From the NCBI GenBank assembly GCA_015832175.1, contig WJXW01000028.1, positions 1 to 44,956 on the forward strand: a stretch of DNA of 44,956 nt. The letters run 5' to 3'. The notes under the pieces are model-generated. The model saw nothing but the letters and a program-made list of their open reading frames with translations, did no database searches and was not told where the DNA came from. The stretch's first letter is position 1. Each line of letters begins with the position of its first letter. This stretch comes from Paraphaeosphaeria minitans. Lineage: Eukaryota; Ascomycota; Dothideomycetes; Pleosporales; Didymosphaeriaceae. This document shows positions 6,535 to 44,956 of the stretch, in pieces. The translations under genes were made by a program, and so were the position numbers.

Positions 6535-6965
6535 CTAATATTCGGCTAGCCACTTAGAGCTATAGGGCTCATAGGGCTGTTAATTTCCTAGATAGCACAG
6601 ATAGGCGCTGGCTACTTAGAGCTATAGGGCTTATAGGGCTACTAATTTCTAAGGACGTATAGACAGACGCTAGCCACTTAGAGCTATAAGGCTTATAGGG
6701 CTGCCTATTTTATAGATAGCGCTACTAGGCGCTAGCCACTTAGAGCTATAGGGCTTATAAGGCTACCTATTTTATAAATAGCGCTACTAGGCGCTGGCCA
6801 CTTAGAGCTATAGGGCTTATAGGGCTGCCTATTTTATAGATAGCGCCACTAGGCGCTGGCCACTTAGAGCTATAGGGCTTATAGGGCTGCCTATTTCTAA
6901 GGACGCACAGACAGATGCTAGCCACTTAGAGCTATAGGGCTTATAGGGCTGCTATTTTATAAATA
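6535..6965. repeat. 62-bp tandem repeat, seven units
   Basis: The core GCCACTTAGAGCTATAGGGC recurs with its first base at 6,549, 6,611 (one mismatch), 6,673, 6,735, 6,797, 6,859 and 6,921, an exact 62-base period with no indels. Each unit holds a GGGCTTATAGGGCT doublet and a variable half that alternates between a 'TTTTATAGATAGCGC' type and a 'TTTCTAAGGACG' type. Since 62 is not a multiple of 3, the array is not protein-coding. Confidence 0.95.
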
Positions 6966-7072
6966 GCACCTACTCTAAATTTTTGCCTATCTCTGTGCAC
7001 CAGCTCCTCTCTATATACCTTTATCCTTATTCTTTGCGATATCCCTAACTAGGGTATTATGCCACTAACACT

Positions 7073-14504: not shown

Positions 14505-16221
14505 TTAAACTGTAGATGTAAATTAAAATCTTTTACACTACTACTAACTATAGAGACTCCTAAACACATCTACTATAATAAGACTTATTACTTTATTACT
14601 TACGTACTATATAGATATGTAATACTCCTAAGTAAGGTGTTTTCTTAGTTTAATAAGGAGCATAGATAAAAAATAACTAGTAAAGAGAGGCGCGTTATCT
14701 AAGAAAGTGTTAACAAGCTTAGGAACCTTCACCCACCACTATAAGAGAAATACAAAGAATTTATAGTTCCTAACACTTTAGTACTAGCCTTTCCTAGCCT
14801 ATGTGTTATCCCTAACGCTTATTACTATTATTGCTGTACCTACGTTACCACTAGGTTCTCTGTAAGCCATAACGTGCACTAACACCTACGCTAAGAATAT
14901 AAACTCTATATTATAAACGTAGGCGAAGAATTAAGGAAACGCTATTATAGTAAGTAAGTAAAGGGCGTAGATTACTAATAGCTTTTCCCCTCTATGCCAC
15001 CTGTATTCTAAAACCTTTATCTTACTTATAAATTTATAGTTAAACTATCTACTAACTCATATAGCTCTAAAGCCACCACTAAAAGAGTTAAGATTACAGC
15101 TAAATCTAGCGTAGACCCTATACCTATGTCTGCTCCTACTAGTAGCAGATTTATAGATTAACTCTAGGAAGTGTTATAATAGGCTAAGAAAGCAAAGTAG
15201 GAGTAATTAGCAGCTATAGCTAGCGTACCCTCTATTTTTACAAATCCCTAGGTTACCTACATAGGTGTCCTATAAGTGTTTAGCAACACATCTATATAGG
15301 TAGAGGCTTTACGCTATATAGCTATACTAACTGCTATAGGTAATCTAAAGTTATATTATCTCTATATAACTATAAAGAGCATAGCTAGAATATAGTAGAA
15401 TATTACTAGCAAAGCCTCTTACTACGCCTATAAGAGAGTAATATAAGAGTATAAGACTAATGTTCCCTTTACTCTACTAGAGCTATACTAGAACCCTTAC
15501 CTCTACTACGCAGGACTGCTCTAGAAGATTTTTATCTTCTTCTACCATGTGTTAGTTAATAATATAGAGAAGCCACTAACGCTTTATTTATAGCCTTACT
15601 AGGGGTAGACCTGGTAGGATATTATAGAGTACTTGGCTTTAATAGATAACATCCCAGAAGTCTAAGAGAACTACACTAGAACTTAATTTACACTATTTAA
15701 AGAGCACTGCTATTACTTTTGGCTATCCCTTATAGAATAAATAAGTTAAATAGAGTATTTTGGGATTAATATGCCATTATTACTAGACAAAAGACAACCT
15801 ACTTAGGGAACACTATTATGTCCTATCGCGTTTAGATAGGAAACAAATAGGGTAAAGGTAACTACTAGTCCTACCTTCTCCCTACTAATTACTGCCCTAG
15901 GTGGATAATACTAGTATCTAACTAGGTTAGAACTAGACTATTAAAAGACGCTTTATATATTAATAAATTTACTATTTAAGATACGTAGGCGATCCTGTAA
16001 GATAAGTGCCTAAAGGCGAAAGAGCTGTAGAGTTATAACATTAAAGTAATTAAGGGTAAGGACTAGAATCCTAAGAGTACTAATATATTCTAGTAACACT
16101 TTATTAGTGTTGTTAATTTTAGTAACAACTATAAGGCGGGAAGGATTATTCTTGGCCTTAACTAGCTAACGCGGACCTACTATATATCTAAGCGCTATAT
16201 AGAGTTATAGTAGGACTGCCC
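14505..16221 (+). pseudogene. TLH helicase copy B, lacking recombinase-like and motor domains
   Basis: The N-terminal finger region (aligned with A ~1,120-1,700) and following sequence are present to about 15,760. They are joined directly to the C-terminal extension (A ~5,648 onward). The ~3.3 kb deletion removes the whole tyrosine-recombinase-like region and RecQ motor. The remaining sequence is also RIPed, so the copy is doubly dead. Confidence 0.8.
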
Positions 16222-16859
16222 TAATATTATTAGGACTAAGAATTCGGACCTAGTATTATCTATGCGCTAGTACGTGCGCACTGGCGCTAGTCTATAAACG
16301 GCTAGCCTACTAACGCGCTATCTTGCGTATTAATACACTATCTCAACGCACTATCCCGCGTACTAACGCACTATCTTAACGCGCTATCCTACGCACTAAC
16401 ACACTATCTTAACACACTATTATGCGCATTAATTTACAATTTACCATCTTAACCTTATACCCCTATTTATCTAGTAAGTGTAATTTCTGGCTAACTATCC
16501 TAACTGTAACTTTTAACTGTATAACTATACGACTTTACCTATAAACCATAAGCCTACCCTTTTACCTATATAGGGGACTTTTACGCATGTAGGCTACGAG
16601 GACTCCTCGCAGCACTACTAGGGGGTAGTTATAAAAGTTTATAGCACTATTATTATTAGGGCGAAAACTTTATTAAGAAGCCCTAAGAAATCGCACTATC
16701 TATAGGTTATACTAAGCCACTAAATAATTTCAACCCTATACTAGAACTAAAATTAGTATAACGTAGAATTATAAATCATGTAAACCTTTCTTAAGTACCC
16801 CTAATTAGTAAATATAACCCTCTTAAGTGTTACCTAGCTATTATACAAATCATTAACAT
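16222..16859. other. Spacer between copies B and C with 33-bp repeats
   Basis: The first part holds the 33-bp tandem repeat listed separately. The remainder is RIPed sequence with no readable frame that I trust. A perfect 13-base palindrome, CGAGGACTCCTCG, lies at 16,597-16,609 in a GC-richer patch. Confidence 0.5.
16311..16433. repeat. 33-bp tandem repeat, about 3.5 units
   Basis: Units starting TAA(T/C)(A/G)CACTATCT begin at 16,331, 16,364 and 16,397, with a partial unit at 16,311 and the next start at 16,430, an exact 33-base period. Each unit is itself two similar halves of ~16-17 bases (ACGCACTATCTTA / ACGCGCTATCCT), so the array grew from a shorter word. Confidence 0.85.
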
Positions 16860-16887
16860 CCCCTAGAAGCCGCTAACTACTTGCTAG

Positions 16888-18115
16888 TTAGAAACCTGTA
16901 ATTAAATTATAATACGCTAGATTCTTATTTAAAAGTATCTCTAGGAGCAAGGGCTCTAGCAGCTCTAAATCTAATATACACGCCTTATATATTTCTGCTA
17001 TAGCTATTACGCTTTTAAAGACAGTATTATTACATTACGTAACTATGTCTATCTATTACTAAAGCTGCGCAACTATTATGCCTTATTTAATATAGGTGTT
17101 GGATATAGAGTTCCTTAGTAGTATTGTAAACACGCCTACACTAAATCTTGCCTTAAGCAGACACTATTATCTCCCTATATTTAAGCACTAACCAAATTCT
17201 CTCTACGCTATAGAATGCGTTTCCTTAGTTAGTTTCTCCTTTTCTATTATACTAAATTCTTAAGTAAATAAAAGTTTTTTTATAATAGACGCGTATCCTT
17301 TCCCTCTTCTACTAGATGGCATTTTTTTTTTTGTACTAGGCCCTCTAATAATTTAAACTCTAACTATAGCGCTGCCTATATCTAGCGCTGCCATATTTTA
17401 CTTATAATACTAACCACCTATCCCTATTTTACGCTCTTGTACAGTGAATAGAACCTCTTAGTCTTAAACTATATAAAACTATATTCCGTGAAACTAGCAC
17501 TAGAGCGTTACAATAATACTATACTACTCTTTAGTATAGTATTAGCTATAGTACTATTGCCCTCTTTATATTTAACTATGTTTAGTAGTCTCTCTACCTT
17601 TTTTCTAAATAACTATAGGCCCTATGTGTGCTTTATCCTCTATACCTATAACACTATTTTCTAATTACGTAGACACTTAGCTGTACCTATAGTAACTACT
17701 TAGCTTATTATTTCTTCTCTAATAGTAGCGCCTACTCTTAGTAGTTTTTTTGTAAATGTATAGTAACGTGCCTCTTCTCTATTATCTTCTAATAACTCCG
17801 CCTCCTCTATATATTGTGTACATAGTACAACTTCTATTATTATATTTACTAGCTAATGCTTTAGCTTTTAATTTTTATCCTCTACTAAATAGCTAATTGC
17901 TTTTAATATGCAATTTTATTTTAGAGGCGCTTTTAGGGCCTCTACTTAAGTGTCTTCCTCCTTACCTAACTCTTTCTTACTATCACTTTAGCGCGCTTAG
18001 TCCCTATAGACAGAGTGTAAGAAGTGAAAAAATTCTTCCTTTTCTACTTATTTATATATCTATTACACTGTAGACTTAGGTAAGCTGCATAGAAATGCCT
18101 TAGTAGGAGGACCTC
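16888..18115 (-). pseudogene. Decayed unknown gene divergent from TLH, copy C
   Basis: Same gene as in copies A and B. The stop is read at 16,888-16,890 after LITGF. It is more heavily mutated than B, with more in-frame stops in the C-terminal third. The upstream end faces the helicase start across ~220 bases. Function unknown. Confidence 0.55.
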
Positions 18116-18334
18116 TTCTCTATAGAACTAAACACTATATAGGCTTTTAATTATAAACTCGTTTATGTACGTTTTGTATAAGGGAGGGAATTAGACTACT
18201 GTTATTCTAAAGCACCTTAGCTAGTAAGATTAAAGAATAGTAGGCTATAGTGTAATATAGTGTTTATATAACCTAGGATAATAAACGTTACCTAGTGTTT
18301 CTTATCTCCCCTTAGCACTAAAGTTTAGCCAACT

Positions 18335-21300
18335 TATTTTAACTACAGATATGGATTAAAATTAATTACACTACTACTAACTATAGAGACTCCTAAACAC
18401 ATTTACTATGATAAGACCTATTACTTTATTACCTACGTACTACATAGATATGTAATACTCCTAAGTAAGGTGTTTTCCTATTTTAATAAGGAACATAGAT
18501 AAGAGATAACTAGTAAAGAGAGGCGTATTATTTAAGAATGTATTAATAAGCTTAGGAACCTTTACCTACTACTATAAGAGAAATATAAAGAATTTATAGT
18601 CCCTAACACCTTAGTACTAGCCTTACCTAGCCTATGTGTTATCCCTAACAGTTATTACTATCGTCACTATACCTATATTGCCACTAGGATTTCTATAAGG
18701 TATAATATGCGAGGACACCTGCGCTAGGAATATAAACTCTATATTCTAAACATAGCTAAAGAAAGAAGGCAGCTCTAGTATAGTAAGTAAGTAAAGGGCG
18801 TAAATTGCTAATAGTTTTTCCCCTCTATGCCACCCCTATTCTAAAACCTTTATCTTACTTATAAATTTGCAGTTAAACTATCTACAAACTTATATAGCTC
18901 TAAAGCTACTACTAATAGTGTTAAAAACCTAACTAAACCTAGCGCAGTCCCTATACCTATTTCTGCCCCTACTAGTAGCAAATTTGCAGATTAGCTCTAG
19001 GAAGCGTTGTAATAGGCTAAGAAAGTAAAGTAGAAGTAGTTAGTAGCTATACCTAGTATACCTTCTATCTCCACAAATCTTTAGGTTGCCTACATAGGTA
19101 TCCTATAAGTGTTTAGCAACACGTCTATATAGGTAGAGGCTTTACGCTATATAGCTGTACTAACTACTATAGGTAATCTAAAGTTATATTATCTCTATGT
19201 AACTATAAAGAGCATAGCTAGAATATAGTAGAATATTACTAGTAAAGCCTCCTACTACGCCTATAGGAGAGTAATATAGAAGTATAAGACTAATGTTCCC
19301 CTTACTCTACTAGAGCTATACTAGAACCCTTACCTCTACTACGTAGGACTGCTCTAGAAGATTTTTATCTTCTTCTACTACGTATTAGTTAATAATATAG
19401 AGAAGCTACTAACGCTTTATTTACAGCCTTACTAGGAGTAGACCTAGTAGGATATTATAGAGTACTTAGCTTTAATAGATAACATCCTAGAAGTCTAAGA
19501 GAACTACACTAGAACTTAATTTATACTATTTAAAGAGCACTACTATTACTTTTAGCTATCCCTTATAGAATAAATAAGTTAAATAGAGCATTTCGAACTT
19601 GCCCTACTAACACTTATAGCGTTCCTAACACTTTTCTACAATAGAAAGGGTTTTCGAGAGGCGTACAACTTTGTAATAGATATATTAGCTATAAAGAAGT
19701 TCTACTATTTTATAGGCCTTTAGAAACTATAGGACAACCTTATCCATTTAAATAATATTTAGCCCTAGACTACTATAAATAGTATATAGACTACTGTTTC
19801 GCTTAATAAGGCTTCCCTTTTTATTACTAAGTAAGATAGCAACATATCTATAGAGGTAGAGAACTGTAATCTCACAGACACATTTAAGGCATAGGTATAT
19901 AACTACCTTACTATAGAGTATCCTACAAGCATGAGCTAGCTTATAAACACAGCACAGTTTATTAGTAAGTTCTAATATAGTAAGAACCTAGATGCCTTTA
20001 TACACTAAAACGGGGATACAGTTACTATGCGTAATATAAGAATAACCCTAGCCTTATTTATAATAATAGCTAGGAATAAGTATAAGGAGACCTTAAAGAT
20101 CCTATACTAGCTAACCTTTGTGTTTACTTATTTAGACCTTCTAAATATTCTATAGGAACTTCTAGTAGAGGAACTAAAAAATGTTACACTAGGCTTCTCT
20201 GTGTTTAGCCCTAATAATAGTAACCTTATGCACAGAGCTGACTTTGTTATTAAAAACCTAATAAAGGGGGTAGGTTAAGAAAGTTTTTTAACTACCCCCC
20301 TTATAAACCTACGTAACTTTACCTAGGTGCAGCGATACTATAACCTAGTATAGAAATTTCTAAAATATCTTCTTTGCCTAATTTACTTTACTAGTGGCTA
20401 ATCTAGCTATAGAATAGAAGTGCTTAGCGTTTAACTTAAGAATAGTTATGCTATAGGTATATATAACATCTTTCTATACAATAGTCTTATCGCGGTAGTC
20501 CTACAATACTATAAAGGGTACAACCGCGATAAGACTGTAAAGACTATATATAGATTCCTCCTAGCAGAGGTAGGTAGTCTCTTAGTGTGGTATATTTGGC
20601 TAGTCTAACTATTCTATCTAGTTGTCTAAGGATAAATAGGGACAGACCTTCGTAACCACTATTACGAGTAGGCGCAAAGTGTGCTCCTGTGGCCAAATAT
20701 AGTAGGAAAATAATACACTATATTATATATCCTTAGTTTAGCTATCTAGAGTGCTAGTCTTTGTTAGATTAGGTAGGAGATTAATATTAGCACCTTACGT
20801 TACCTTATAATTACTTTTGCCTACTAGTTTACTAGCTCTAAGATGCTTATTTAGGAACTTACTAAAGAGAATATAGATAATATTATAAACAAGATAGAGG
20901 CTAAAGCATAAGAAATGTAGGCTAAGCACCTACCTAAAATAGCCTACGCAGTATACGCACTTAATATATTAAAGATATTTACCTACTTATTTAATAATAC
21001 AGAGGCACACTTTAAGACGTTATAGAAATAGCATTACGCTATTTATTTTAGCTTAGTAGAAGCGTAGCTAAGTTTTAACTATTATAAGAGTATTATAGCT
21101 ACTACTTAACAGTAGAATACTAAGAGAAGCAATATTAATCTCCTATAACTGTTATAAGAGAACTTTAGATGCGACGCCTAATTTAGAGGTATATAGAAGG
21201 CCGCCCTATTAGCCATCCTTATAGGCGAAAGTGTAGTAGTGTATATTATAAGCACTAGAGCTAGTAAAAGTCTTCTCTTCATACTACTAGCCTACTATCT

Positions 21301-23530
21301 AGGCTATAGGCAGAGCCTTGTAATAGTGTTACTTGCAGTCTTATATATAAATATACTTTAACGCTGTGTAACCCTATGTATACGTGCTATAGTATAGAAG
21401 TAGGGCTTATGTAACAAGTAGGTGGCTATTATACTTATAACTCTAGAGAATATGGCTAGTAACAGTTTCTAGGCTTACGTACGTAGGTAGAAGTCGTTAG
21501 GCGTACTAGAGTAAATAGTAGTGAATAAATTTCACTATGTTATTCTCTTTAACATGGCATACTGCCCTCATCTTTACAACCTATATTAGTTAATATAGTA
21601 CGAAGTCCCTCTAACTTTACTTACTATAACCCTACCTCTAGATAATTAGCACTAAGCGTTTCGATTACTAGGCCTCCCTACAGATATAAACCCTTATAGG
21701 GAATCTACACCTTATAGTAATGTCTAATATAAGGTCTGTAGCATCCCACTCTTAATAAGCACTACAATAATAGACATAGTAGAGTACATATAATAGGCTC
21801 TATAAAAATTTAAGAAGGTTCTTATCTATATTAACCTTATTTTAATAGTAGATACCCTAGCCTAGGGCCTAGACTGCTTAAGATACTATAGCTAAATAGA
21901 AGAGGGCAAGAAGGGAACGAGCTTAGACCTATTCCTATAATAATTAGAAGGCGCTATAATTGCGACTAGCGCATTAATAGAAGGCCTCTATATCCTAGAT
22001 ATCTAGGTAGTTATTAGGTTTACTCTACCAGCCAGTCTAATTAGCCTTATACAAGAATTTGGCAGGGTTACCTAGGACTAGAAACTAGGCACTATACGCC
22101 TGGTGCTTAGTAAGTAAGTTCCAAATATACACTTTAATAAAGCTAGTTAGGATGCTTAGCTGGCTGTGCTAGCCTACGTATAGAACCCTACCTACTAACT
22201 AGTCTACTATCGCAGTATTATTAATCGTTATCTTAATAATAACAAGATAAGGAAGATATGCAAAGTATCTAAGTAGGCTTATAATGTATACTTAGACTTA
22301 ATTTACTTTCTATCTAATTTACCCTACGTGCAAAGTTTATTAATTACACTAGGAAGACTCTAAGGTGCAGTAAGGGGACTACTATAAAACGTGCCTTTAA
22401 CGCCTATTTAGGCTAGGTACGATGAAAACTCCTCACCAGCCTATATAATAGGTACCTAGAGTAGTAACTATTATGTTCTATTATCCAGAAAACGCCTACT
22501 ATTTCTAACACCTAGTTAATTAACTAGGCTAGCCAGCCTATAGACAGATTTAGGTCTCCTCCTAATATATATAGGAACTATGTTAGGTTCCCCTACTAAA
22601 CGTTTATTTACCCCTAGTTAGTTTTTCTCCAGCTCCCTAGTTACTATGCTAATTATATACACAGTAAACCTATATTAGAAGGCACTAGCCACGCCTTTTA
22701 GAGCAGCCTACTAAGAGAGGGAGCTAGACTTCTTTTAATATAGAATAGAAAAGGCTAGGAAGAGAAGAGGTAGGATCTTTAGGGAAGAAATACTAGCTTA
22801 TCTTAAATACTAGAGACTTTACTGTGTGGCTTACTTTATTAAACAGAAGCCCTTTAACCATAGCTAGGATTAATGTGCCATTATTACTAGATAAAAGACA
22901 ACCTACTTAGGGAACACTATTATGTCCTATCGCGTTTAAATAGGAAACAAATAAGGCAAAGGCAACTACTAGGCCTGCCTTCTCCTAGTAAATTGCTGCC
23001 CTAGGTAGCTTATACTAGAATCTAACCAGGTTTAAACAGGACTATTAAAAGACACTTTATGTATTAATAAATTCGCTATTTAAGATACATAGGCGATCCT
23101 ATAAGATAAGTGCCTAAAGGCGAAAGAGCTGTAGAGTTATAACATTAAAGTAATTAAGAGTAAGGACTAGGATCCTAAGAGTACCAATACATTCTAGTAA
23201 CACTTTATTAGTGTTGTTAATTTTAGTAACAACTATAAGGCAGAAAGGATTATTCTTAGCCTTAACTAGCTAACGCAGACCTACTATATGTCTAAGCGCC
23301 ATATAAAGTTATAGTAGGACTGCCCTAGCTAGGGAGCTAGTAGAACCCCTTCTATAATACTAATTTAAATGTAATGTAGACACAATAACAGAAGGTTTAA
23401 AGTGGGTAACGTATACTATAGGACTAAAGGAAATATAAGACTCTATATCTATTACATAGGGCATAAGTAAGGTAAATTAGGGGGAGAGGCTATCTTACAA
23501 ATATATTAGGGTTTAAAATAGAATAGAAGA
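18335..23530 (+). pseudogene. RIP-inactivated telomere-linked RecQ-type helicase, copy C
   Basis: Full-length counterpart of the copy A helicase with the same order: finger region (~18,400-18,720), central recombinase-like region (~20,390-21,020, including KHLPKIAYAVY near 20,928), RecQ motor (~21,180-22,110) and C-terminal extension to ~23,530. Motif II is further decayed than in A: DEFH of A reads NKFH here (~21,525), as expected from G-to-A changes. Many in-frame TAG/TAA. Transcribed toward the telomere, directly behind B. No part could give a working enzyme. Confidence 0.82.
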
Positions 23531-23635
23531 GCGTTAGGCACGCGTCTAGCATAAGTAGAAGTGTATTTATAACCCCTAGTAATAGTGATTAAATGCGTTA
23601 TAAAAAGAAGTAATGCTAAGCTAGAAAGACTACTT

Positions 23636-35440: not shown

Positions 35441-38400
35441 TATACCTAGTCTAGCTATTATTATAGACGCCTAGGTAAAGCACTTTACTACCTACAACAC
35501 TAGCTACCTAAAGCCTAAGCCTAAGTTCTCTAAAGGCGTTGTAGTCTTTAATATTACGTATAAGAATGCTATAAACCTAGGTCCTAGGCGTATCTCTATA
35601 GGCTATATCTTTGTAAAAGAGTAGCTGTCTGCCATATTAGATAACTAGACTAGTAATAGCTAGGCAATATCTTAGCAGCTTTATAATAAGTATAGATAGC
35701 TAGGCCACCTTTAAGCCAGATGCCCTAGCTAACTCTACTATAAGTGCGGTAACCCTAGCTATCTAGCGTTAGATTACTAACTTTAAAACACCTACTATGC
35801 CTATAGCAACGCAGGACATAAGCGTAAAAACTATTAGAACGTTTACCCTTACTACCTAATAGAGGGCTATGCTACTACTAACTACTACGTAATTAATTAC
35901 GTACCTACACCTACTTAAGCTAGTTAAGCTATAGCCACCTCTACTAAGAGCGTAGCCCCTACTAAAGATAAGGCTATACCTATAGGTTTTATAGCTACAC
36001 CTACTAAAGCATTAGGCGTCCCTACTAACACTATTATTACACCTACAGCTAGCGAAGCTTCTACTAACTTAGAACTAGTAGAAGATTATAGTCTACCTCT
36101 TAGTTAGTTTAAGGCCCTAGAATTAGACAAGATAGAAGTTAAGCTATATACTATAACTATAGAGCACTATTTATTATCTATTTAGCTACGCCTATTAGTC
36201 TTATACGTAAGTAAAAATACAGTAAGTGGCTAGTTTACTAAGGAAGCTATCCTCTAGACCTCTGCCTTTAACACTATTAGCCTAATTAAAACTTATAAGA
36301 TATTAGTTAATTTGCCTACAGAATTTAACTAGCGTAATCTTAACTATCTTAGTGCCTATAGCTGCGAAAAGCTAATACAGCTTATCTCTAGAGATAGCGC
36401 CACAGCCTATCTACTCTACGTATCCTAGGAAATTAAGGCAGATACTAGCCTAAATAGATAGCCCTAAGATCTCCTAGGGCTTACGCTATTCTTTAATAGC
36501 ACCTATAGCCTACATATAGCTACAATACACACGCTTTAAGACGCGCTATAGGGATGCTACTACATATAGATTTACTTCTACACTACAGCCAGCTTATAGT
36601 TTAAGAATACTATAAATAAGGTTTCTAAATTAATCTAAACGTAGGTAAATATTAACACTATAGCTGCCTAGTATCTACGCTAGGCTATTAACATCTAGCT
36701 AGGGATATAGCTTCTACTAGACAAGCGACCTAAGTACTCTATCCTAGCACGTAAGTAGTTTAACTATTATAAGGAGTATTTTACAGTGTATTTCTATTTA
36801 GCTATTATAGAGTATAAGGCTATCCCTAACGCCGTGTTTATGCCTACAAAGGTACACCTGGTTAAGATAGGTAGTAACCTGGACTAGCGCGCCTACTTTG
36901 CGCTTATTATAATAGATAAAAATATAAACCTTCGCGTTAATGCCCTATTTAACATCTAGTTCTTTAGCGATAATATAAGTAATAGCATGGTATAGAGAGG
37001 GCGTGTAGTGCTGCCAGTAGGTATCGCTAATAGCCTTAAGCACTCTGCCTTTATCTAGCAACCCTATAATAGCAGGTCTAGTTTCTAGCAGGACTCTAAG
37101 TTCTCTAAGGACCACGTTGTTAAGGCTAATAACTTTAATAATATTAACCAGCTGTAGGCTGCGCTAGATAACCACCTAGGCATTAAAGTCTACATTCGCG
37201 TTAAGTAACTCTAGAACTAGATTAAGTAGGAAATTAACACGCTGCGCATGCTGTTTTAGTAGTAGAATAAGTATAAACTAAAGCTTAACTTATTACTTAA
37301 TAATAATATACTTAATCTCCCTAATTATAGCTACTTTAAGCAGCACATTTTAGTGTTTAGACTTAATACTATGTAAGCTGCTATTACTAAGGCCACTAAG
37401 CTTACTAGGCTAAAGAATAAGTAGTAAGGTTTCTTCTTTTTCCTTAAGCACTTACGCGCTGGCGTTGGCCTTATTTAGGGCTTTAGTAGTATAGGCAAAT
37501 TAAGGTTAATTTTAGCTATTATTCTTTACTACTATAAGCTATTTACGCGTAGTAGTAACACTAGTTAGCTTTAGGTTATGTTACCTATTAACGCGCAGTT
37601 AAACAACCTATACCTATAAGTGTATAACTAGCTAATGGCTTAGTACACTATGCTTAGTACCTAATCTACTAATATAACTATCCCTTACCCCATTGTTATT
37701 CGCTGGCACATATAGGAGACAGAGAAGAAGGTCTAGTAAAAAGATACGCTTACTTTACGCTAGGCATATAATATTAACACTAGCCCCAATTATACGCCTA
37801 ATGTTGGCGGTGCCTCTGCTGGCGAGAACAAGGATAATAATACTATTCTAGAAAACCTATCTATTAAGTACCTTCTATATACCGCGTTTAACTAGCACAG
37901 TAAGAGTCTTAGTAATAATTAGCTTAAGTAGGTTAGTATTACAGAAGGATAGTAAATGCTGCACCTTACTAGTATACCTATAGAAGGCAGGCAGCTCTAC
38001 CCTATTACTAACCTAAACCCTAGGAAGTACTTACAGTTCCACGACCTAATAGAGCAGTATATAAGTAGCCACGTTATAGTAGTAGAGAATATAGGGTTGC
38101 TCTAAGCTACTACAAACGCGCTAGTAGCCAATTTAGCTTTACTTATACACGCTATCTTTATAATACTGCACATGCTATCTAAGTACTACACCTACTCTAA
38201 GAGTAAAGTATTTACTACACTTTAGAATAAGACTAGTAAGACTACTAAGCGCGCTACCTTCTACTCCTTTATCTAGTTATAGCTAGACGCCTTCTATGTC
38301 CTATTTAGAGACACATTCTAGCCTACTCTAGTAGTAGGACTAGCTAGGCCTACAGAGACCTATTACTTCTATAAGTAAACTAAGATATTACTCTTCTTCC

Positions 38401-38639
38401 GCTTTATTCTTAGTAGCGCCTTTTAGCACTAGTTAAATCTCTAGTATTAGTTTATTCTAGATATAGCAGCTATAGTAAACGCAATCCTACTAGGCAAGAA
38501 GCTGTAGACTAACCCTAGGGTTACTAATCTACCTAACTTTAACCATACTTACTAGTTCTTCTATAATAAGCTTAGCGTTCCTTAGACTATCTACTTCCTA
38601 TCCAAGAGGAAGAGGCGTCGGTGGTCACAGACGCGCTAA
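35441..38639 (+). pseudogene. RIP-inactivated gene: three zinc knuckles plus UPF1-like SF1 helicase, 3'-truncated
   Basis: One frame holds from ~35,441 to TAA at 38,637-38,639. Three CCHC-type knuckles lie at ~35,736, ~35,793 and ~35,844 (YYKCGNPSYLALDY, YYAYSNAGHKRKNY, YPYYLIEGYATTNY; the Tyr residues are RIPed Cys). A Pro/Thr/Ser-rich linker and a long middle region follow. The SF1 motor has a Walker A-like LIQGFSSIGKLRLI at ~37,470 (family GPPGTGK), LPINAQLNNL at ~37,580 (family APTNAAVDN), a weak motif II at ~38,165, and PTETYYF then LNLQYQFILDIAAIVN at ~38,350-38,470 (family motifs III-IV region). Motifs V and VI are missing: the frame ends in a basic stretch exactly where mutation stops. 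UPF1-like enzymes act on RNA or RNA-DNA. Confidence 0.7.
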
Positions 38640-38652
38640 GATTGGCTTAGCG

Positions 38653-38666
38653 TTAGGGTTAGAGTT
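38653..38666 (+). other. Interstitial telomere-like tract
   Basis: TTAGGGTTAGAGTT, a little over two telomere units with one mismatch, lies 14 bases after the stop of the truncated SF1 relic and 198 bases before the ATG of the open TLH gene. It has the same strand orientation as the terminal telomere. It is short, so chance is possible. Confidence 0.45.
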
Positions 38667-38863
38667 AACGAATTAGGTAGGATTTGATACCAGAAACGCG
38701 TTAGACTAGGGGCAGAAACAATCCTATTCCCCAGCTATTTCTATTTCTTTCTCATTCTAATTCATCTCAACGTAACCTCTTATACTAATCTACCATCTCT
38801 TATTCACAAAATAGGATGGTGGTGGCGCAGGGTTTAGCCATTACTTTTTACTACTAATTCGCG
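38667..38863 (+). promoter_or_regulatory. Upstream region of the open TLH gene
   Basis: This 197-base leader is not RIPed. It has a pyrimidine-rich tract at ~38,735-38,800 (TTTCTATTTCTTTCTCATTC), common before transcription starts in filamentous fungi. No clear TATA box is seen; TATACTAATC at ~38,781 is the closest. The ATG context GCGATGG has G at -3 and +4, which favours this start. Confidence 0.4.
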
Positions 38864-41800
38864 ATGGAGTTCTGCTGGGACGCTCGAGCTTCCGCGTCAA
38901 GCCCAGCTAACAGAGTACTAACATCACCACATCAACAGAACTCTCAGCAGCAACAGCAACTAGCAGGAGAAAACTTAGCGCAAGCTAATATACAAAAGTA
39001 TATTCATTTTGTTAAGGAGTACGGCGTGCTTTGCTGCAGCGAGCACAAAGCCGGCATAGAAAATCTCGATGTACATCTCCGTCAAAAGCATAGTGTACCA
39101 GTTAACGAACGGAGGAAATTCATTGAAAGCTGCGCTCTTTTGAGAAGACAAGGGCTGGGCAGCGTTACGCTACCAGACGCTGGCGGACCGCCAATCCAGG
39201 TCCTAGGAGCGCCGTTGGACGGCTTCCAATGCAAGCAGCCAGCATGCAGCTATCTTACGCGAAACAAGGGCCAGATACGACTACACTGCAACAGTCATGG
39301 GTTAGCGTTCAAGACGGGATCAGATGCGCTCTACCAGAAGGTAAAGATGCAGTCTTTCTTCCCCGCTTCAGGACGGCAGCGGTACTTTGTAGTTTGCGTC
39401 CCCGATGTAGCGGACAGCGGAGCAGACGCTAGGGCGCATAAAGAAGAGGTGGAAGACATTCTGGCAGAGTACGCGCGAACGCAGGAGGAGAGGAAGCGGC
39501 AAGAGCAGGTGATGGATGCAGAAGTCGCAAAGACAGACAAGACAGGCTGGTGGAAGTTTACAGAGTGGCCAGAGCACTTTGCGAACCGCAACTGCGTGCA
39601 CCTTGCCCACGCGATCCGGCTGCCGCGCCGGGACGAGCCCAAGCTGCAGAAGGCCGCGCGGGCTGTGGAGCAGCTGGTGGAGCAGAGCGTCCGAGGGCTG
39701 TCCTCGCTACCACGTGAGACCCGACGATGGGTGAAGAGTGCGCAGGCCAACGAGATCCACCAGCAGCCGATAGCCCGACTGCAGAACCCAGAGAGCCAGG
39801 CGCGCTATGCTGGGTACATTGTGATGTTCGTGTGCTATGTCCTACGTATCGTCGCCGCCGAAGAAGCGGACAAGGAGAGCGAGGACACGGAGAGTAGCGA
39901 GGGCAGCAGCACCGACGACAGCAGCGACGGCGACGGCAGCAGCAGCGACTGCAGTGATGAGAGCCCGCCCGAGGCCCACACAGGTCGCCGAGTCAAAGTT
40001 GATCCCATGAAGGACGCGCGGGAGATGTTCCCATGGAAAGAGGACCAAAAGCTGCTGGCCACCATGCTCTGGGAGGCCCTGGACAGCAACGACGAAGCCG
40101 GCCACATCGTCCTAGTGCGCCGGATGCTTAGTACGTTCATCATGACGACCTACATCCGCAGTCCGTTTGAGAGCGGGCTCGTTCACTTTGCTGCTGTGCT
40201 TGGGTTCGATTCAGAGACACGTCGACTGCGCACCGCGAAGAACTATTCGTATCTAGTGGCTGGGATGGTGTACTGCGTTCGGGTGATCAGTGTCGAACAC
40301 CTACTTCCGCCCGCGCAACGGGAACAGCAGGGCTTGGTGGAACGTGACCACTATCTTGACCTGAGAAAGCGCTTCCTAGCGGACGGGTCCTTCAGCCCGA
40401 CGAGCCAGCTGCTTAGTCTGCTGGCCTATGGCAAGTTCATCGGCATGAATACCGGCAACGCGGGCAACGCCTTCTGGTCAGAGGATAAGAAGATCTTCTA
40501 CCTCAACGGTAGACCCATCGTTATACACCATTTCCAGCTGATGGCCCAAGAACTGTTGACCGAGCTGGAGGACCTGCTCTGGGGTGAGCTGCTCTGGGTC
40601 CGCAGTCCCGGTCAGCGTTTCCCGATCCGGCTCGACCTGATTCAGGACGATGTCGCGTGCACACGACGCGGCATGTCCTTTGTCACGCACGGGAACAACG
40701 GCCTGGAGAATGGCTTGCGATGGATGCTCGAACGGATGATGCAGGACGAGCAGGGTCGGAAGCTCCGCTCCGGAGATGGGACTTGGAACGTTGCACGCGT
40801 GAAGCTGTACCTGCGCAGTGTCAAGCGCTTCAAGGAGCTGGAGCTTGCCAATCTCCACATTGACGAGGGAATGCCAGGTCGGGGCACCGAGATCACGTCG
40901 ATGCGGTTCCGCAACGGAGCACTGCAGGACCGCAACCTCTTCGTGATGGACGGACAGATCATGACGGTGGTCCGTTACTACAAGTCGCAGTCGCAGTTCG
41001 ACAAGCCCAAGGTCATCCCAAGGTTCCTGCCCTCGCGGCTCTCGCAGGTGCTCGTTGTGTACCTGGCGTACGTGCAGCCGTTCGAAGAGTACCTGACCGT
41101 GGAGGTGCTGGGCGGCAGCTTCACCGACTACCTGTGGGCCAACGAGCAGGGTCCGTGGCACACGGATCACCTGACGCGGGTGCTGAAGCGCGAGACGGGC
41201 AAGCACCTGGGGGTGGCGCTGAACACGCTCGACTACCGACACACGGCGGTGGGGATTGGGCGGGAGGTGGTTGGGGATGTGTTTGGGCGGGGTTACCAAG
41301 ACGAGGTGGGTGAGATTGAAGAGCCCGAGGTCGACGAGGACGGTGAGAGCCCGTTGGAGCTGCAGAGCGCGCGGACGACCAAGATCGGCCTGGCCAACTA
41401 CAGCGTGCCCATCGATATTGTGAAGCATCTCAGCATGCGTTCGATCGAGACCTTCCGGCCGCTCAGTCGGCGCTGGCACGAGTTTCTAGGTGTGGATGGG
41501 CACGAGGTACGACCCAGTGCAGCCAGGAAGCGGCGATGGGAAGAAGAAGGAGACGGTCAAGACAAAGGGAGAGATGATCTCGCCGTGGTCGTGCCGCAGA
41601 AGAAAACCAAACCAGGGGGTGTCACTGCGAGTGCGATGTCTAGAGCGATGCAGCAGGCACTTGGCCAGGCTACTGCATCGTTCAAGTCGGACGAGCAGGA
41701 ACAGGCCATGTTCGCTATGGTGAACGGTCAGACACCGCTGGTGGTCGTGCTCCCCACAGGTGGAGGCAAGAGTCTGCTGTTCATGGTGCCGGCCTGCCTC

Positions 41801-42934
41801 GACCATGCTGGCGTGACCGTGGTTGTGGTGCCGTTCCGCGCGCTGATCGAGGACCTGGCAACGCGTATCCGCGCGCGCGGTATCGACTGCGTGGAATGGG
41901 TTAACCACGAGACGAACCCGGCCTCCGTCATGCTGGTTGGTGCTGATGTCGCCGGCGGCGCGGGGTTCCTGAAGTATGCCAGCTCGCTGAAGGATAAGAA
42001 GCAGCTGCAGCGGGTGGTGATTGACGAGTGCCATCTCATCATCACCTCCAGCCATTGGCGGCCGAAGCTGGCGAAGCTGCGGAATCTGCGCGTGCTTGCA
42101 TGCCCGATCGTACTGCTGACGGCGACGCTACCGCCCGTGCTGGAGGGGGTGTTGGGTAGAAGCATGTTGATTCAAGCTGCCACCTACATCCGGGCCAGCA
42201 CGGTGCGGCCCAACATCCGGTATTACGTGTCGTGGTGTGGGCGAGGTAAGGCCATGGAGGCAGCACTGGCCATGTGTCGACGGCGGCAGGAACAGCTGCG
42301 GGGTGGCCAGAAAGGCGTCATCTACTGCCACAGCAGGACTGCATGCGAAATGCTGGCAGGGGCGCTGGGCTGCAAGCACTACCACGCTGGCGAGTTGGAT
42401 CGAACCGAGATCCTCGCCAGCTGGCTGGACGAAGGCGGGCTCATCGTGGCAACATCAGCGCTCGGTACTGGGGTTAACTTTCCCAGCATCGTGTTCGTCT
42501 TGCACGTAGGCATGCCATGGAGCATGATCGACTACTGCCAGGAGAGTGGGCGTGCGGGGCGTAGCGGCGAGGTGGCGGACTCGGTCATCATCGTCGAGCC
42601 AGGTGAGGTGGAGAGGCGAATCCGGGAGGGTGGAGCGTCGGTGGACGTGTGCGCGATGGGCATGTTCATCGAGAGCGAAGGCTGCCGGCGCGGGAAGATG
42701 AGCGAGTACATGGATGGGCAGCGGGTAGTGTGCAGTGACATGGACTCGGCTGGGTGCGATCGATGCGGTGAGGGCCGGATCGAGTGGCAGCAGGCCCAGT
42801 CGCTCGCGGCGAGTGAGTGGCAAGAGGTGGAGGCAAGCATGGACGAGCTGCGGGCCGGGTGTGCGATATGCTGGGTGCTGGGCGGGCAGGCTGGCAAGAG
42901 CACAGAACGATGCTGTGCACGGCGCAGCCCATGA
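38864..42934 (+). CDS. Telomere-linked RecQ-type helicase with zinc fingers and a tyrosine-recombinase-like domain
   Basis: 1,356 codons, GC-rich, un-RIPed. In order: polyQ (24-32); Cys/His region (57-76, CC..H....HLRQKH) and a C2H2-type finger (C123, C128, H141, H145); an acidic Ser-rich linker (332-370). Next is a domain at ~640-880 with R673 (GRGTEIT), K707 (YYKS), RHT at 792-794 and Y846, resembling a tyrosine-recombinase core. A basic patch (888-891) precedes the RecQ motor: Q946, Walker A LPTGGGKS (963-970), DECH (1054-1057), TATLP (1086-1090), motif V near ATSALGTG (1196-1203) and motif VI QESGRAGRSG (1226-1235). A RecQ-type zinc site follows (C1274, C1290, C1298, C1301). TLH genes are known at fungal chromosome ends, where a role in telomere maintenance or recombination is presumed. 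This frame runs out early; the usual Cys-rich C-terminus continues in another frame. Transcribed toward the telomere, stop ~1.9 kb from it. Confidence 0.93.
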   Translation: MEFCWDARASASSPANRVLTSPHQQNSQQQQQLAGENLAQANIQKYIHFVKEYGVLCCSEHKAGIENLDVHLRQKHSVPVNERRKFIESCALLRRQGLGSVTLPDAGGPPIQVLGAPLDGFQCKQPACSYLTRNKGQIRLHCNSHGLAFKTGSDALYQKVKMQSFFPASGRQRYFVVCVPDVADSGADARAHKEEVEDILAEYARTQEERKRQEQVMDAEVAKTDKTGWWKFTEWPEHFANRNCVHLAHAIRLPRRDEPKLQKAARAVEQLVEQSVRGLSSLPRETRRWVKSAQANEIHQQPIARLQNPESQARYAGYIVMFVCYVLRIVAAEEADKESEDTESSEGSSTDDSSDGDGSSSDCSDESPPEAHTGRRVKVDPMKDAREMFPWKEDQKLLATMLWEALDSNDEAGHIVLVRRMLSTFIMTTYIRSPFESGLVHFAAVLGFDSETRRLRTAKNYSYLVAGMVYCVRVISVEHLLPPAQREQQGLVERDHYLDLRKRFLADGSFSPTSQLLSLLAYGKFIGMNTGNAGNAFWSEDKKIFYLNGRPIVIHHFQLMAQELLTELEDLLWGELLWVRSPGQRFPIRLDLIQDDVACTRRGMSFVTHGNNGLENGLRWMLERMMQDEQGRKLRSGDGTWNVARVKLYLRSVKRFKELELANLHIDEGMPGRGTEITSMRFRNGALQDRNLFVMDGQIMTVVRYYKSQSQFDKPKVIPRFLPSRLSQVLVVYLAYVQPFEEYLTVEVLGGSFTDYLWANEQGPWHTDHLTRVLKRETGKHLGVALNTLDYRHTAVGIGREVVGDVFGRGYQDEVGEIEEPEVDEDGESPLELQSARTTKIGLANYSVPIDIVKHLSMRSIETFRPLSRRWHEFLGVDGHEVRPSAARKRRWEEEGDGQDKGRDDLAVVVPQKKTKPGGVTASAMSRAMQQALGQATASFKSDEQEQAMFAMVNGQTPLVVVLPTGGGKSLLFMVPACLDHAGVTVVVVPFRALIEDLATRIRARGIDCVEWVNHETNPASVMLVGADVAGGAGFLKYASSLKDKKQLQRVVIDECHLIITSSHWRPKLAKLRNLRVLACPIVLLTATLPPVLEGVLGRSMLIQAATYIRASTVRPNIRYYVSWCGRGKAMEAALAMCRRRQEQLRGGQKGVIYCHSRTACEMLAGALGCKHYHAGELDRTEILASWLDEGGLIVATSALGTGVNFPSIVFVLHVGMPWSMIDYCQESGRAGRSGEVADSVIIVEPGEVERRIREGGASVDVCAMGMFIESEGCRRGKMSEYMDGQRVVCSDMDSAGCDRCGEGRIEWQQAQSLAASEWQEVEASMDELRAGCAICWVLGGQAGKSTERCCARRSP

Positions 42935-43284
42935 TGATGGGGAGGGACATGGACGAGTTCCGGCGAGGGGTGCGCGACGCTGGGAACTGCCACAGCTGTC
43001 GAAGGTGCTGGGTGAGCCAGAAGTGGTGCGCGACAGGGCAGGACGTCGCGAACTCGTGCCAGTGGCCGAACATTGTGATTCCTGTGGCCAGGGCAGCAAC
43101 GGGGATTGCGGATGGGCTTGAGATCATTCGGCAGTGCGGGTTCCAGGGCGAGTGCGAGGTTTCGTGCCAGGCGTACCAGGTATGGCTTGGACAGCGCCAT
43201 TGTGAACGTATCTGGGGCGAATTTCTTAGTAATGCAATGGTAGTAGCTATAAGAGTTATTATAAAACTTAAAGAGAAGAATTAG
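42896..43284 (+). CDS. Out-of-frame C-terminal tail of the TLH helicase
   Basis: The frame one base back from the main one is open from before 42,817 to TAG at 43,282-43,284. After about 42,896 it reads as the natural continuation of the TLH C-terminus: EHRTMLC follows CAICWV of the main frame, then CHSCRRCWVSQKWC and SCQWPNIVIP, a Cys-rich pattern typical of TLH C-termini. Joining the two needs a one-base shift between about 42,870 and 42,905, giving ~1,470 residues. The cause may be a real one-base deletion, a sequencing error or, less likely, a very short intron. The last ~20 codons run into AT-rich sequence, so the original end may differ. Confidence 0.6.
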
Positions 43285-43935
43285 GCCTAGAATATAGTAC
43301 TTTACTTCTATTTTTTAAAAAATCTCACTTTGTACATATTATAGTAGAGTTAGCCTATCTATTATAGATTTTATTTTACTTTACTATATATTAGTATAAT
43401 AGGATGTAAGTTTTAGAAATTATAGAAAAAATAGAAACTAGAGTCTTCTAGAAGAGTTTAGGAATTGTATAAAATAAGTAAATTTCTAAAAACCTAAGTA
43501 CTAGTATTGATACTATCTTATAACTTATTAGAATTTAATAAAATTATAATTAAACTATATTTCTACTTTTTTATAAACTTTACCACTAGTTATTAAATAG
43601 TAGTATACTTTTTTATATACTTATAATAATTTTTACTTATTTAGTAATCATAAGTTTTACTTTAAATAGTTTATACTAATAGTATTATATAACTACTAGA
43701 GTGAAACTAAATTTAATTTTATATTAATAATTTATATTTCTATTAAAAAGAGAATATAAAAGAAATTATTAAAGTAGTAGTATTTATAAGTAGAAGTAGG
43801 ACTTATAAATAATAAAACTAAATTACTAAACTATGTAGTAGATAATAAATAATTTCTAGTTATTATAAAATTAAGAAAAAAAAACTAAAGGGTTATTTTT
43901 TATTAAAGGGAAAATATATATTTCTAAAGTTATAG
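43285..43935. other. Extremely AT-rich spacer, no gene
   Basis: Cytosine is scarce in every context here, unlike the 1-38.6 kb region where CpC, CpT and CpG persist. I see no readable frame. Composition changes sharply from GC-rich to AT-rich within ~60 bases around 43,220. Confidence 0.6.
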
Positions 43936-44565
43936 AAAATATAAAGTAATATAACTTTTTAAAAAGTAATATAAGGTAAAGTTATTAACTATTCTATACA
44001 GGTATATAAGGTCGTGTTAAGTTATATAAAAGGATATAAATTATTATAAAGGGACATAAAGCTATATAAAGTAATATGTAGTAAAGTTATTAAATATTTT
44101 ATAAAGTTATATAAGGTTGTATTAAGTTATATAAAGGGATATAAATTATTATAAAGTAATATAAAGGTATATAAAGTAATATAAAGTAAAGTTATATAAG
44201 GTTGTATTAAGTTATATAAAGTGATATAAATTACTATAAAGCTATATAAAGTGATATATGGTAAAGTTATTAGATATTTAATAAAGTTATATAAAGTGAT
44301 ATAAATTGTAATAAAGTAATATAAAGCTATATAATACTATATAACTTTCTATAAAATAGTATAAGGTACAGTTATTAAATATTTTATAAAGGTTTATAAA
44401 GTAGTGTTAAGTTGTATAAAGTGATATAAAGTAACATAACTTTCTATAAAGGGATGTAAGGTGAAGTTATTAAATGTTATATAAAGTGGTATAAAGCTAT
44501 ATAAAGTAAAATAAAGTTATGTAGAGTAATATAGGATGGACTTATTAAATGTTGTTTAAAGTTAT
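43936..44565. repeat. AT minisatellite built from ATATAAAGT-type words
   Basis: Words of the form (T/G)ATATAAAG(T/C) repeat every 9-12 bases. A higher-order unit containing AAAGTTATTAAATATTTTATAA recurs near 43,981, 44,086, 44,266, 44,371 and 44,466, with spacings of 105, 180, 105 and 95 bases, and a diverged one near 44,541. It is nearly devoid of C and non-coding. Confidence 0.8.
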
Positions 44566-44736
44566 TAGTTATACTATAAAACAAACTTAGTAAGGAGAGA
44601 AGAATAAGCTTCTTATTATAAAACTTTATATAGTAGAGAAAAGTTAGGACTTTTTTAGAAAAGAGATATAATATTATAACTAGATAAGGAGTATACTAAT
44701 ATAAGTTAAAGGGAGTTAAAGTAGGGAAAAATCTTG
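44566..44736. other. AT-rich spacer before the telomere-proximal repeat
   Basis: A purine-rich plus strand (GGAGAGAAGAATAAG at ~44,595; GGGAGTTAAAGTAGGG at ~44,711) with no gene. CpA/TpG remain rare up to ~44,730. Confidence 0.4.
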
Positions 44737-44847
44737 AGGTAGAATAGGAAACCCGTTTATAAGTGTATAGGAGAGGTAGGATAGGAAACCCGTTCGTGAG
44801 TGCAAGGGAGAGGTGGGGTGGGTGGCCCGTCGGGATGGGAAGAACCG
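44737..44847. repeat. 37-bp telomere-proximal repeat, three units
   Basis: Units start AGGTAGAATAGGAAACCCGT, AGGTAGGATAGGAAACCCGT and AGGTGGGGTGGGTGGCCCGT at 44,737, 44,774 and 44,811, exactly 37 bases apart. The unit farthest from the telomere is the most AT-rich and the nearest is fully GC-rich, so mutation fades toward the end. Confidence 0.85.
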
Positions 44848-44855
44848 CTGGTGCG

Positions 44856-44956
44856 TAGGGTTAGGGTTAGGGTTAGGGTTAGGGTTAGGGTTAGGGTTAG
44901 GGTTAGGGTTAGGGTTAGGGTTAGGGTTAGGGTTAGGGTTAGGGTTAGGGTTAGGG
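44856..44956 (+). repeat. Telomere, (TTAGGG)n
   Basis: About 16.8 perfect TTAGGG units run to the last base of the window, with the G-rich strand 5' to 3' at the right end. This is the natural chromosome end (or the end of the assembled contig within it). Confidence 0.99.

Follow-up and report, generated by a model that had tools for sequence, protein, structure and literature searches.

What places a helicase gene at the very tip of a fungal chromosome, copy after copy? Reports of telomere-linked helicase (TLH) genes at fungal telomeres go back to the 1990s, and the stretch analyzed here, 44,956 nucleotides of Paraphaeosphaeria minitans (contig WJXW01000028.1, hereafter the window; contig G000:C25 in our numbering), carries one near its 3′ end, which runs out in (TAGGGT)n. 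An earlier note on this DNA had read in the TLH open reading frame (ORF) the residues R673, K707, R792 and Y846 of a tyrosine recombinase (YR), and had proposed that TLH is a fusion of finger, recombinase-like domain and RecQ helicase that could help to move itself at chromosome ends. The residues are indeed there, and our analysis of the protein, of its genomic copies and of their junctions makes it probable that the terminal element bearing this gene, TLH1, is a one-ended, telomere-bearing YR mobile element that replaces chromosome tips. Feature coordinates are collected in Table 1.

The helicase region of the protein (residues 944-1235) matches the structures of RecQ, RecQ5 and BLM in the PDB, and the gene has the defining traits of the RecQ-like TLH family, namely a RecQ-like helicase core, a position less than about 10 kb from the telomere and multiple copies. 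For the domain upstream of the helicase, YRs are the top fold matches (Foldseek) of two structure models, both with the catalytic-domain fold of the tyrosine recombinase/TopoIB superfamily, so that the structural comparison called for in the earlier note came out in its favor. Arg673 stands in GRGTEI, Lys707 in RYYKS (model residue 118, directly after strand 109-116 in the second model) and Arg792 in L789-D-Y-R792-H-T. Counted over 169 TLH homologues (P0001-P0169), the box I Arg, hairpin Lys, box II Arg and Tyr that characterize a tyrosine recombinase are nearly invariant, and His793 is kept in 169/169. Profile-profile comparison bore the note out in part: without knowledge of the motifs, it set both catalytic Arg in the register of XerD, whereas K707 was left unplaced and the P values were weak (0.0014-0.03). 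TLH thus combines a modeled YR fold with near-invariant R, K, R and Y, and these fold matches together with residue conservation rule out a chance motif match and support the proposed three-part fusion.

The histidines of the signature behave differently. In YRs, the box III His or Trp lies nine residues N-terminal of the Tyr. The corresponding stretch of TLH1 reads Q834-S-A-R837-T-T-K-I-G-L-A-N-Y846, so that the replaced His, which the note had put at Gln834, belongs three residues further on, at Arg837. The replacement of the box II His by Leu789 holds for TLH1 and not for all homologues: residue 789 is L in 105, H in 48, M in 8, Q in 5, R in 2 and N in 1, so that some members of the TLH family do have the box II His. 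The domain may be catalytically active as a YR.

A whole-genome search for TLH scored 34 matches out of 186 candidates (lower bounds, very common words having been skipped), located at contig ends, where several are arranged in tandem (period 4987 bp). When 29 fetched copies were compared with the window over 4281 bases, 25 were identical, three had one change and one had ten. The frame in the window diverges from the other copies near the C terminus (42870-42934), and the C1 copy encodes 1473 aa, its frame continuing into a Cys-containing tail. Upstream, identity to the window ends at 38596-38602 in copy after copy while the flanks vary, and the window's own left flank was found in just one other fetched copy, on C7. 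TLH1 therefore has an exact left end, (C)CTAY followed by CCAAGAGG, that lies 267 bp upstream of the TLH ATG.

Genome-wide, a 20-base left-end pattern occurs at 87 places with at most three mismatches (49 exact, 22 with one or two, 16 with three). As the reversed pattern gave 15 matches at the same threshold, some of the three-mismatch places, of which five are mid-chromosome (unfetched) and 11 within 150 kb of a tip, are due to chance. Every one of the 71 places with at most two mismatches is 150 kb or less from a contig tip, and 69 are directed toward the nearest one. Orientation exceptions fall in three blocks (C2 83-120 kb, C3 121-124 kb and C18 22-31 kb), with one further exception at a mid-chromosome three-mismatch place; such wrong-way ends are perhaps later inversions or fused former ends. 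Fifty further left ends were fetched, and with the earlier ones they yielded 93 junction readings (some places being read twice in overlapping loci) with 66 different 32-base flanks, and 61 different TLH1 sites when told apart by the 20 bases preceding the core. Across these 61 sites the core bases are C at 59, then C, T and A at all 61, and the following base (38601) is T at 38, C at 19 and both at 4, in copies that are otherwise near-identical; the sequence upstream of the core has nothing remarkable. At one locus (L053, G000:C16:1454108-1454357) the junction holds an additional CCTAC unit, as though the core were repeated. Within the leader, a perfect inverted repeat is a candidate protein-binding site.

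For 28 of the 61 sites, an uninterrupted (empty) copy of the target is present in the window. Aligned to CCTA, these carry C in 26, C in 23, T in 18 and A in 15 cases; CC is found in 22/28 and CCTA in 11/28, whereas their frequencies in the window are 3.7% and 1.2% (p values as low as about 1e-26, on the assumption of independence). In this count L053 was dropped as ambiguous, a site having both T and C left ends was counted once, L054 was retained despite an empty copy on the opposite strand, and for L030 and L032, which matched two empty copies each, the first was used, which is better for the reading that we favor. Of the 28 targets, the TLH1 element itself contains 11, and six are in copies of a second family, TLH2, that have undergone repeat-induced point mutation (RIP), and many inner tandem copies terminate at the 43583 target. 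At filled sites, the native sequence past the core no longer follows the core. The bases found at the empty sites thus indicate that the element is joined at a short C(C)TA core.

The right end is of another kind. Its motif GGTGCG(TAGGGT)n occurs 32 times exactly, never farther than about 132 bases from a contig tip. One more occurrence, with three mismatches, is likewise at a tip; no copy was seen in which a right end is followed by native sequence. The distance from the tip to the outermost left end is 6343-6378 bases at 30 of 60 tips, and inner TLH1 copies end where the next copy begins. The window and the C7 left end form a natural empty/filled pair with a common flank: window 37364-44403 corresponds to a near-identical inner copy on C7 (L006, G000:C7:6757-13797; 24 mismatches in 7 kb), which breaks off at window 44791, where a new element begins, so that C7 has an extra TLH1 at its tip. 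On C14, the outer copy begins 739 bases into another copy, whose remainder is absent distally. Alignments of the pairs examined show precise insertion and replacement of the tip, as the distal loss in the C7 and C14 pairs implies, and tip replacement would in turn explain the orientation bias, since a telomere-bearing element would be tolerated only when pointing outward. These data, namely an exact left end with 61 flanks, C(C)TA at empty sites and a right end restricted to tips, come from DNA beyond what the note had covered and argue independently for the suggestion that TLH could help to move itself.

The same kind of left end and target recurs in the diverged TLH2 family, as its junctions show. 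The TLH2 left end is exact and has a fixed sequence, CTAATATTATTAGG. The 38 copies examined (the window and 37 loci) have 38 different flanks and an invariant CTA at the end, none being more than about 130 kb from a contig end; L366, which duplicates the window place on C7 and was aligned in another register, and a 95-base match in mid-C8 were left out. For 18 of the 37 loci an empty copy is present in the window, the native base before CTA agreeing with the junction in 16/18 and native CTA being found in 11/18, compared with a window frequency of 4.9% for CTA. The families are mutually nested, with TLH2 inside TLH1 (L368) and TLH1 inside TLH2 (L080), and target sites near 43492, 44240 and 44572 are used by both. 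As the earlier note had described, the RIPed copies share the layout of the recombinase-like domain, with stops inside: SYRTEV or SYRIEV, YYKG and RFL at 3119-3379 and 20315-20596, then in the same frame HLPKTAYVVY (copy A) or HLPKIAYAVY (copy C), the His standing exactly at Tyr-9, where TLH1 has Arg837. Position 16854 was rejected as a TLH2 left end, the flank there being shared among copies; the real end is at 16220. Just past the first RIPed copy, a 62-base unit is repeated 6.9 times in tandem (6545-6969).

TLH is the sole long gene seen in the 6.3-kb element, whose left end is fixed and whose right end is the telomere; every other ORF above 150 aa coincides at least in part with the TLH gene and its 3′ end. 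We suppose that the TLH protein, with its OrsD finger, YR-fold domain and RecQ helicase, would recombine the left-end core (C)CTAY with a target C(C)TA inside another chromosome end or another TLH copy, and that the YR itself may perform the cutting and joining. A single exchange would suffice, as everything distal to the target core would be swapped for the element and its telomere, and the new copy would as a result point to the tip. RecQ unwinding could help to copy the arm, in a manner resembling break-induced replication, or could assist a reciprocal swap, and the high copy number favors copying over swapping; the finger and the leader repeats may provide recognition. RNA-primed insertion was discarded, as the 5′ end faces the centromere and no reverse transcriptase (RT) family is among the Pfam matches of the TLH ORF, to which the RT search was confined.

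Several observations weigh against this account of TLH1. Sequence searches detect no YR family, residues 430-890 giving no PDB sequence match and a single sub-threshold Pfam row. Shallow YR sets compared with the domain gave no match, and the profile comparison that aligned the Arg residues but not K707 with XerD reached P 0.0014 for the catalytic part, 0.0025 for the whole domain and 0.011-0.03 in global mode, while the whole domain also matched region 150-420 of the protein itself over a short stretch, again with P 0.0014. Foldseek E values were never at or below 1e-3 (best 8.6e-3). Model residues 224-256, just before Tyr846 (model residue 257), have a predicted local distance difference test score below 50, and the position of Tyr846 is not firmly modeled. 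Both the box II and the box III His are replaced in TLH1. Two of the 61 sites lack the first core C (L013, L068), and among the 28 empty sites two, L068 and L004, begin with a base other than C. A second end, a direct repeat or a circular form, as in known YR transposons, was not observed.

Among the other explanations, an element with a fixed left end might move without its YR being the joiner, if linear extrachromosomal or broken-end fragments were joined by microhomology end joining or break-induced replication, with TLH as a helicase aid. The shortness of the common core, usually CC or CCTA, is what microhomology joining would leave, and tip replacement resembling gene conversion is observed in the C17 copy (L018), whose ten base changes are exclusively C to T or G to A and fall in the leader, in the first 171 bases past the core, the following 4.1 kb being identical to the window; the C17 tip was, this pattern suggests, recently converted from another end. 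Yet template repair should scatter the left end, which is constant to within the shared core in 61 TLH1 sites and 38 TLH2 copies, and the near-invariant R, K, R and Y in 169 homologues imply that the domain is kept for something, so that we think this explanation improbable. Less probable again is that the domain is a YR-derived DNA-binding module devoid of chemistry, holding TLH at telomeres or at the leader as in integrase-derived phage repressors. The replacement of the box II and III His in TLH1 would fit, as would the presence among the fold matches of MrpR, YopR and SroF, which we take to be integrase-like phage regulators; the near invariance of Tyr, both Arg and Lys and the precise insertion seen in the DNA do not.

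The remaining two explanations bear on the right end and on the identity of the copies. A conventional two-ended YR transposon, moving as a Crypton- or Starship-like circle and acquiring its telomere on the right by later addition or capture, would share with the parts consulted of the Starship (PMC12506042) and Crypton (PMC3212892) accounts a gene at the 5′ edge reading inward and a short core at the insertion. We disfavor it and hold it very unlikely, as all 32 exact right-end motifs are terminal with an identical telomere junction, no right end with native continuation is seen and 69/71 left ends face the nearest tip. The ordinary view, in which TLH is a family of host genes that owes its spread solely to homologous exchange among subtelomeres, draws on the near-identity of the 29 compared copies (25 identical over 4281 bases), which makes homogenization between tips likely, and such homogenization by homologous recombination probably does occur here as well. 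Homologous recombination could make copies alike in sequence, yet new left-end junctions are beyond it: exchange alone yields neither 61 different junctions at one end nor junctions inside TLH with the empty site on record, a contradiction that leaves this view hardly any likelihood.

How does a one-ended, telomere-bearing YR element compare with known systems? In the available text of three papers, the fungal TLH families of Magnaporthe, Fusarium, Ustilago, Metarhizium and Agaricus likewise consist of telomere-adjacent RecQ-like helicases in many copies, with full and truncated TLH regions (PMC12857005, PMC7473861, PMC4522978). The published accounts, in the parts consulted, treat TLHs as host genes (so PMC12857005) or telomere-associated genes; the portion seen of PMC7473861 found no domain beyond the helicase core, and that of a 2024 paper calls TLH function unclear (PMC11893274). 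The word recombinase does not occur in PMC12857005, PMC8381367, PMC11499160 or PMC7473861, nor integrase in PMC12857005, and none of the four terms looked for occurs in PMC13068351. In the open literature, a scope that excludes bioRxiv and most subscription papers, no paper contains both telomere-linked helicase and tyrosine recombinase, and none of the titles and abstracts listed describes a telomere-bearing YR element.

Starships, with their Captain YR (DUF3435), share a YR gene at the 5′ edge, empty sites and a Cre-like structure, and differ in being large with direct repeats, according to the available part of PMC12506042. TLH1, too, has its YR gene first at the 5′ edge reading inward; unlike Captains, TLH has no DUF3435 match (Pfam, E up to 1, and up to 10 for residues 430-890), its helicase is fused and its right end is a telomere. 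Cryptons also encode a YR protein, and their direct repeats of 4-6 bp are thought to be the recombination substrate in the portion consulted of PMC3212892. TLH similarly has a short core common to element end and target, but no F-type GCR1_C (Pfam, E up to 1), while helicase is a word absent from PMC3212892. In contrast to both, TLH lacks a direct repeat at each end with native sequence continuing beyond. Telomeric retrotransposons (MoTeR, FoTeR, Penelope-like) and yeast Y′ also inhabit and reshape chromosome ends, as the parts seen of PMC8381367, PMC12857005 and PMC4522978 describe. Retroelements use reverse transcription, whereas TLH, without an RT family match, targets subtelomeric C(C)TA and has its 5′ end toward the centromere. 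Yeast Y′ spreads by recombination. Helitrons and one-ended bacterial transposition resemble TLH in a fixed 5′ end, a helicase with a catalytic Tyr and one-ended behavior. Helitrons have an HUH Rep and a Pif1-type helicase; TLH has RecQ-type DEAD and Helicase_C domains and no Helitron family in Pfam at E up to 1, a comparison that did not extend to the HUH motif. Protelomerases (TelK, TelA) make hairpin telomeres, while the telomere here is ordinary (TAGGGT)n.

Table 1. Features of the TLH1 element and of a TLH2 copy in the window
Feature	Position	Strand	Remarks
TLH1 terminal element	38597..44956	+	6.26 kb plus telomere: left end, leader, ORF, AT-rich tail, telomeric repeats
Left-end core CCTAT (CCTAC elsewhere)	38597..38601	+	CTA common to target; element-only sequence from 38602 is CCAAGAGGAAGAGGC
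Perfect 7-bp inverted repeat CGCTAAG-ATTGG-CTTAGCG in leader	38634..38652	+	by-eye reading of sequence
Degenerate telomere repeats TTAGCGTTAGGGTTAGAGTTA in leader	38647..38667	+	orientation as real telomere
TLH open reading frame	38864..42934	+	1356 aa
OrsD (PF12013) zinc-finger-like domain	39005..39298	+	residues 48-145, Pfam E 4.6e-9
Tyrosine-recombinase-like catalytic domain	40631..41503	+	residues about 590-880; fold matches, profile comparison
Arg673, box I Arg	40880..40882	+	kept in 167/168 homologues with a residue there
Lys707, beta-hairpin Lys	40982..40984	+	kept in 167/168 homologues with a residue there
Leu789, box II His position	41228..41230	+	His in 48/169
Arg792, box II Arg	41237..41239	+	169/169
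Arg837 at Tyr-9, replacing box III His/Trp	41372..41374	+	Arg 168/169, His 1
Tyr846, presumed nucleophile	41399..41401	+	169/169
RecQ-like DEAD domain	41693..42139	+	residues 944-1092, Pfam and structure matches
Helicase_C domain	42299..42568	+	residues 1146-1235, Pfam
Empty self-target CCTAA	43493..43497	+	used by TLH1 (T and C variants) and TLH2
Commonest empty self-target TTTA-CC-ACTAG	43583..43584	+	17 readings: 12 T-type, 5 C-type
AT-rich minisatellite tail	43710..44562	+	kept or lost in inner copies depending on next outer copy's start
Terminal (TAGGGT)n telomere, right end of element	44856..44956	+	
RIPed TLH2 copy with own exact left end CCTAATATTATTAGGACTAAG at 16220	16220..23632	+	23632 is merely the end of similarity to the window's first copy
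RIPed TLH2 recombinase box I and Lys hairpin	20315..20596	+	stops inside

Within a gene long known from fungal chromosome ends lies a hitherto hidden DNA-recombinase domain, one that may be an enzyme, and this recombinase-like domain is part of an apparent telomere-bearing mobile element. We lean, with somewhat less assurance than for TLH1 itself, toward TLHs being a class of transposable elements absent from the literature searched, one-ended and telomere-bearing YR elements that replace tips via a single exchange at a 3-5 bp core, whereby host telomeres would become part of the parasite, or the parasite would become the host's telomere-capping and end-repair device. If true, TLHs would be, to our knowledge, the first mobile elements in which the chromosome end serves as the second end. 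Tyr846, the defined DNA end and the defined targets offer testable handles. Such an element would account for TLHs being terminal, tandem and near identical, as well as for the loss and rebuilding of fungal chromosome ends and the instability of subtelomeric genes.
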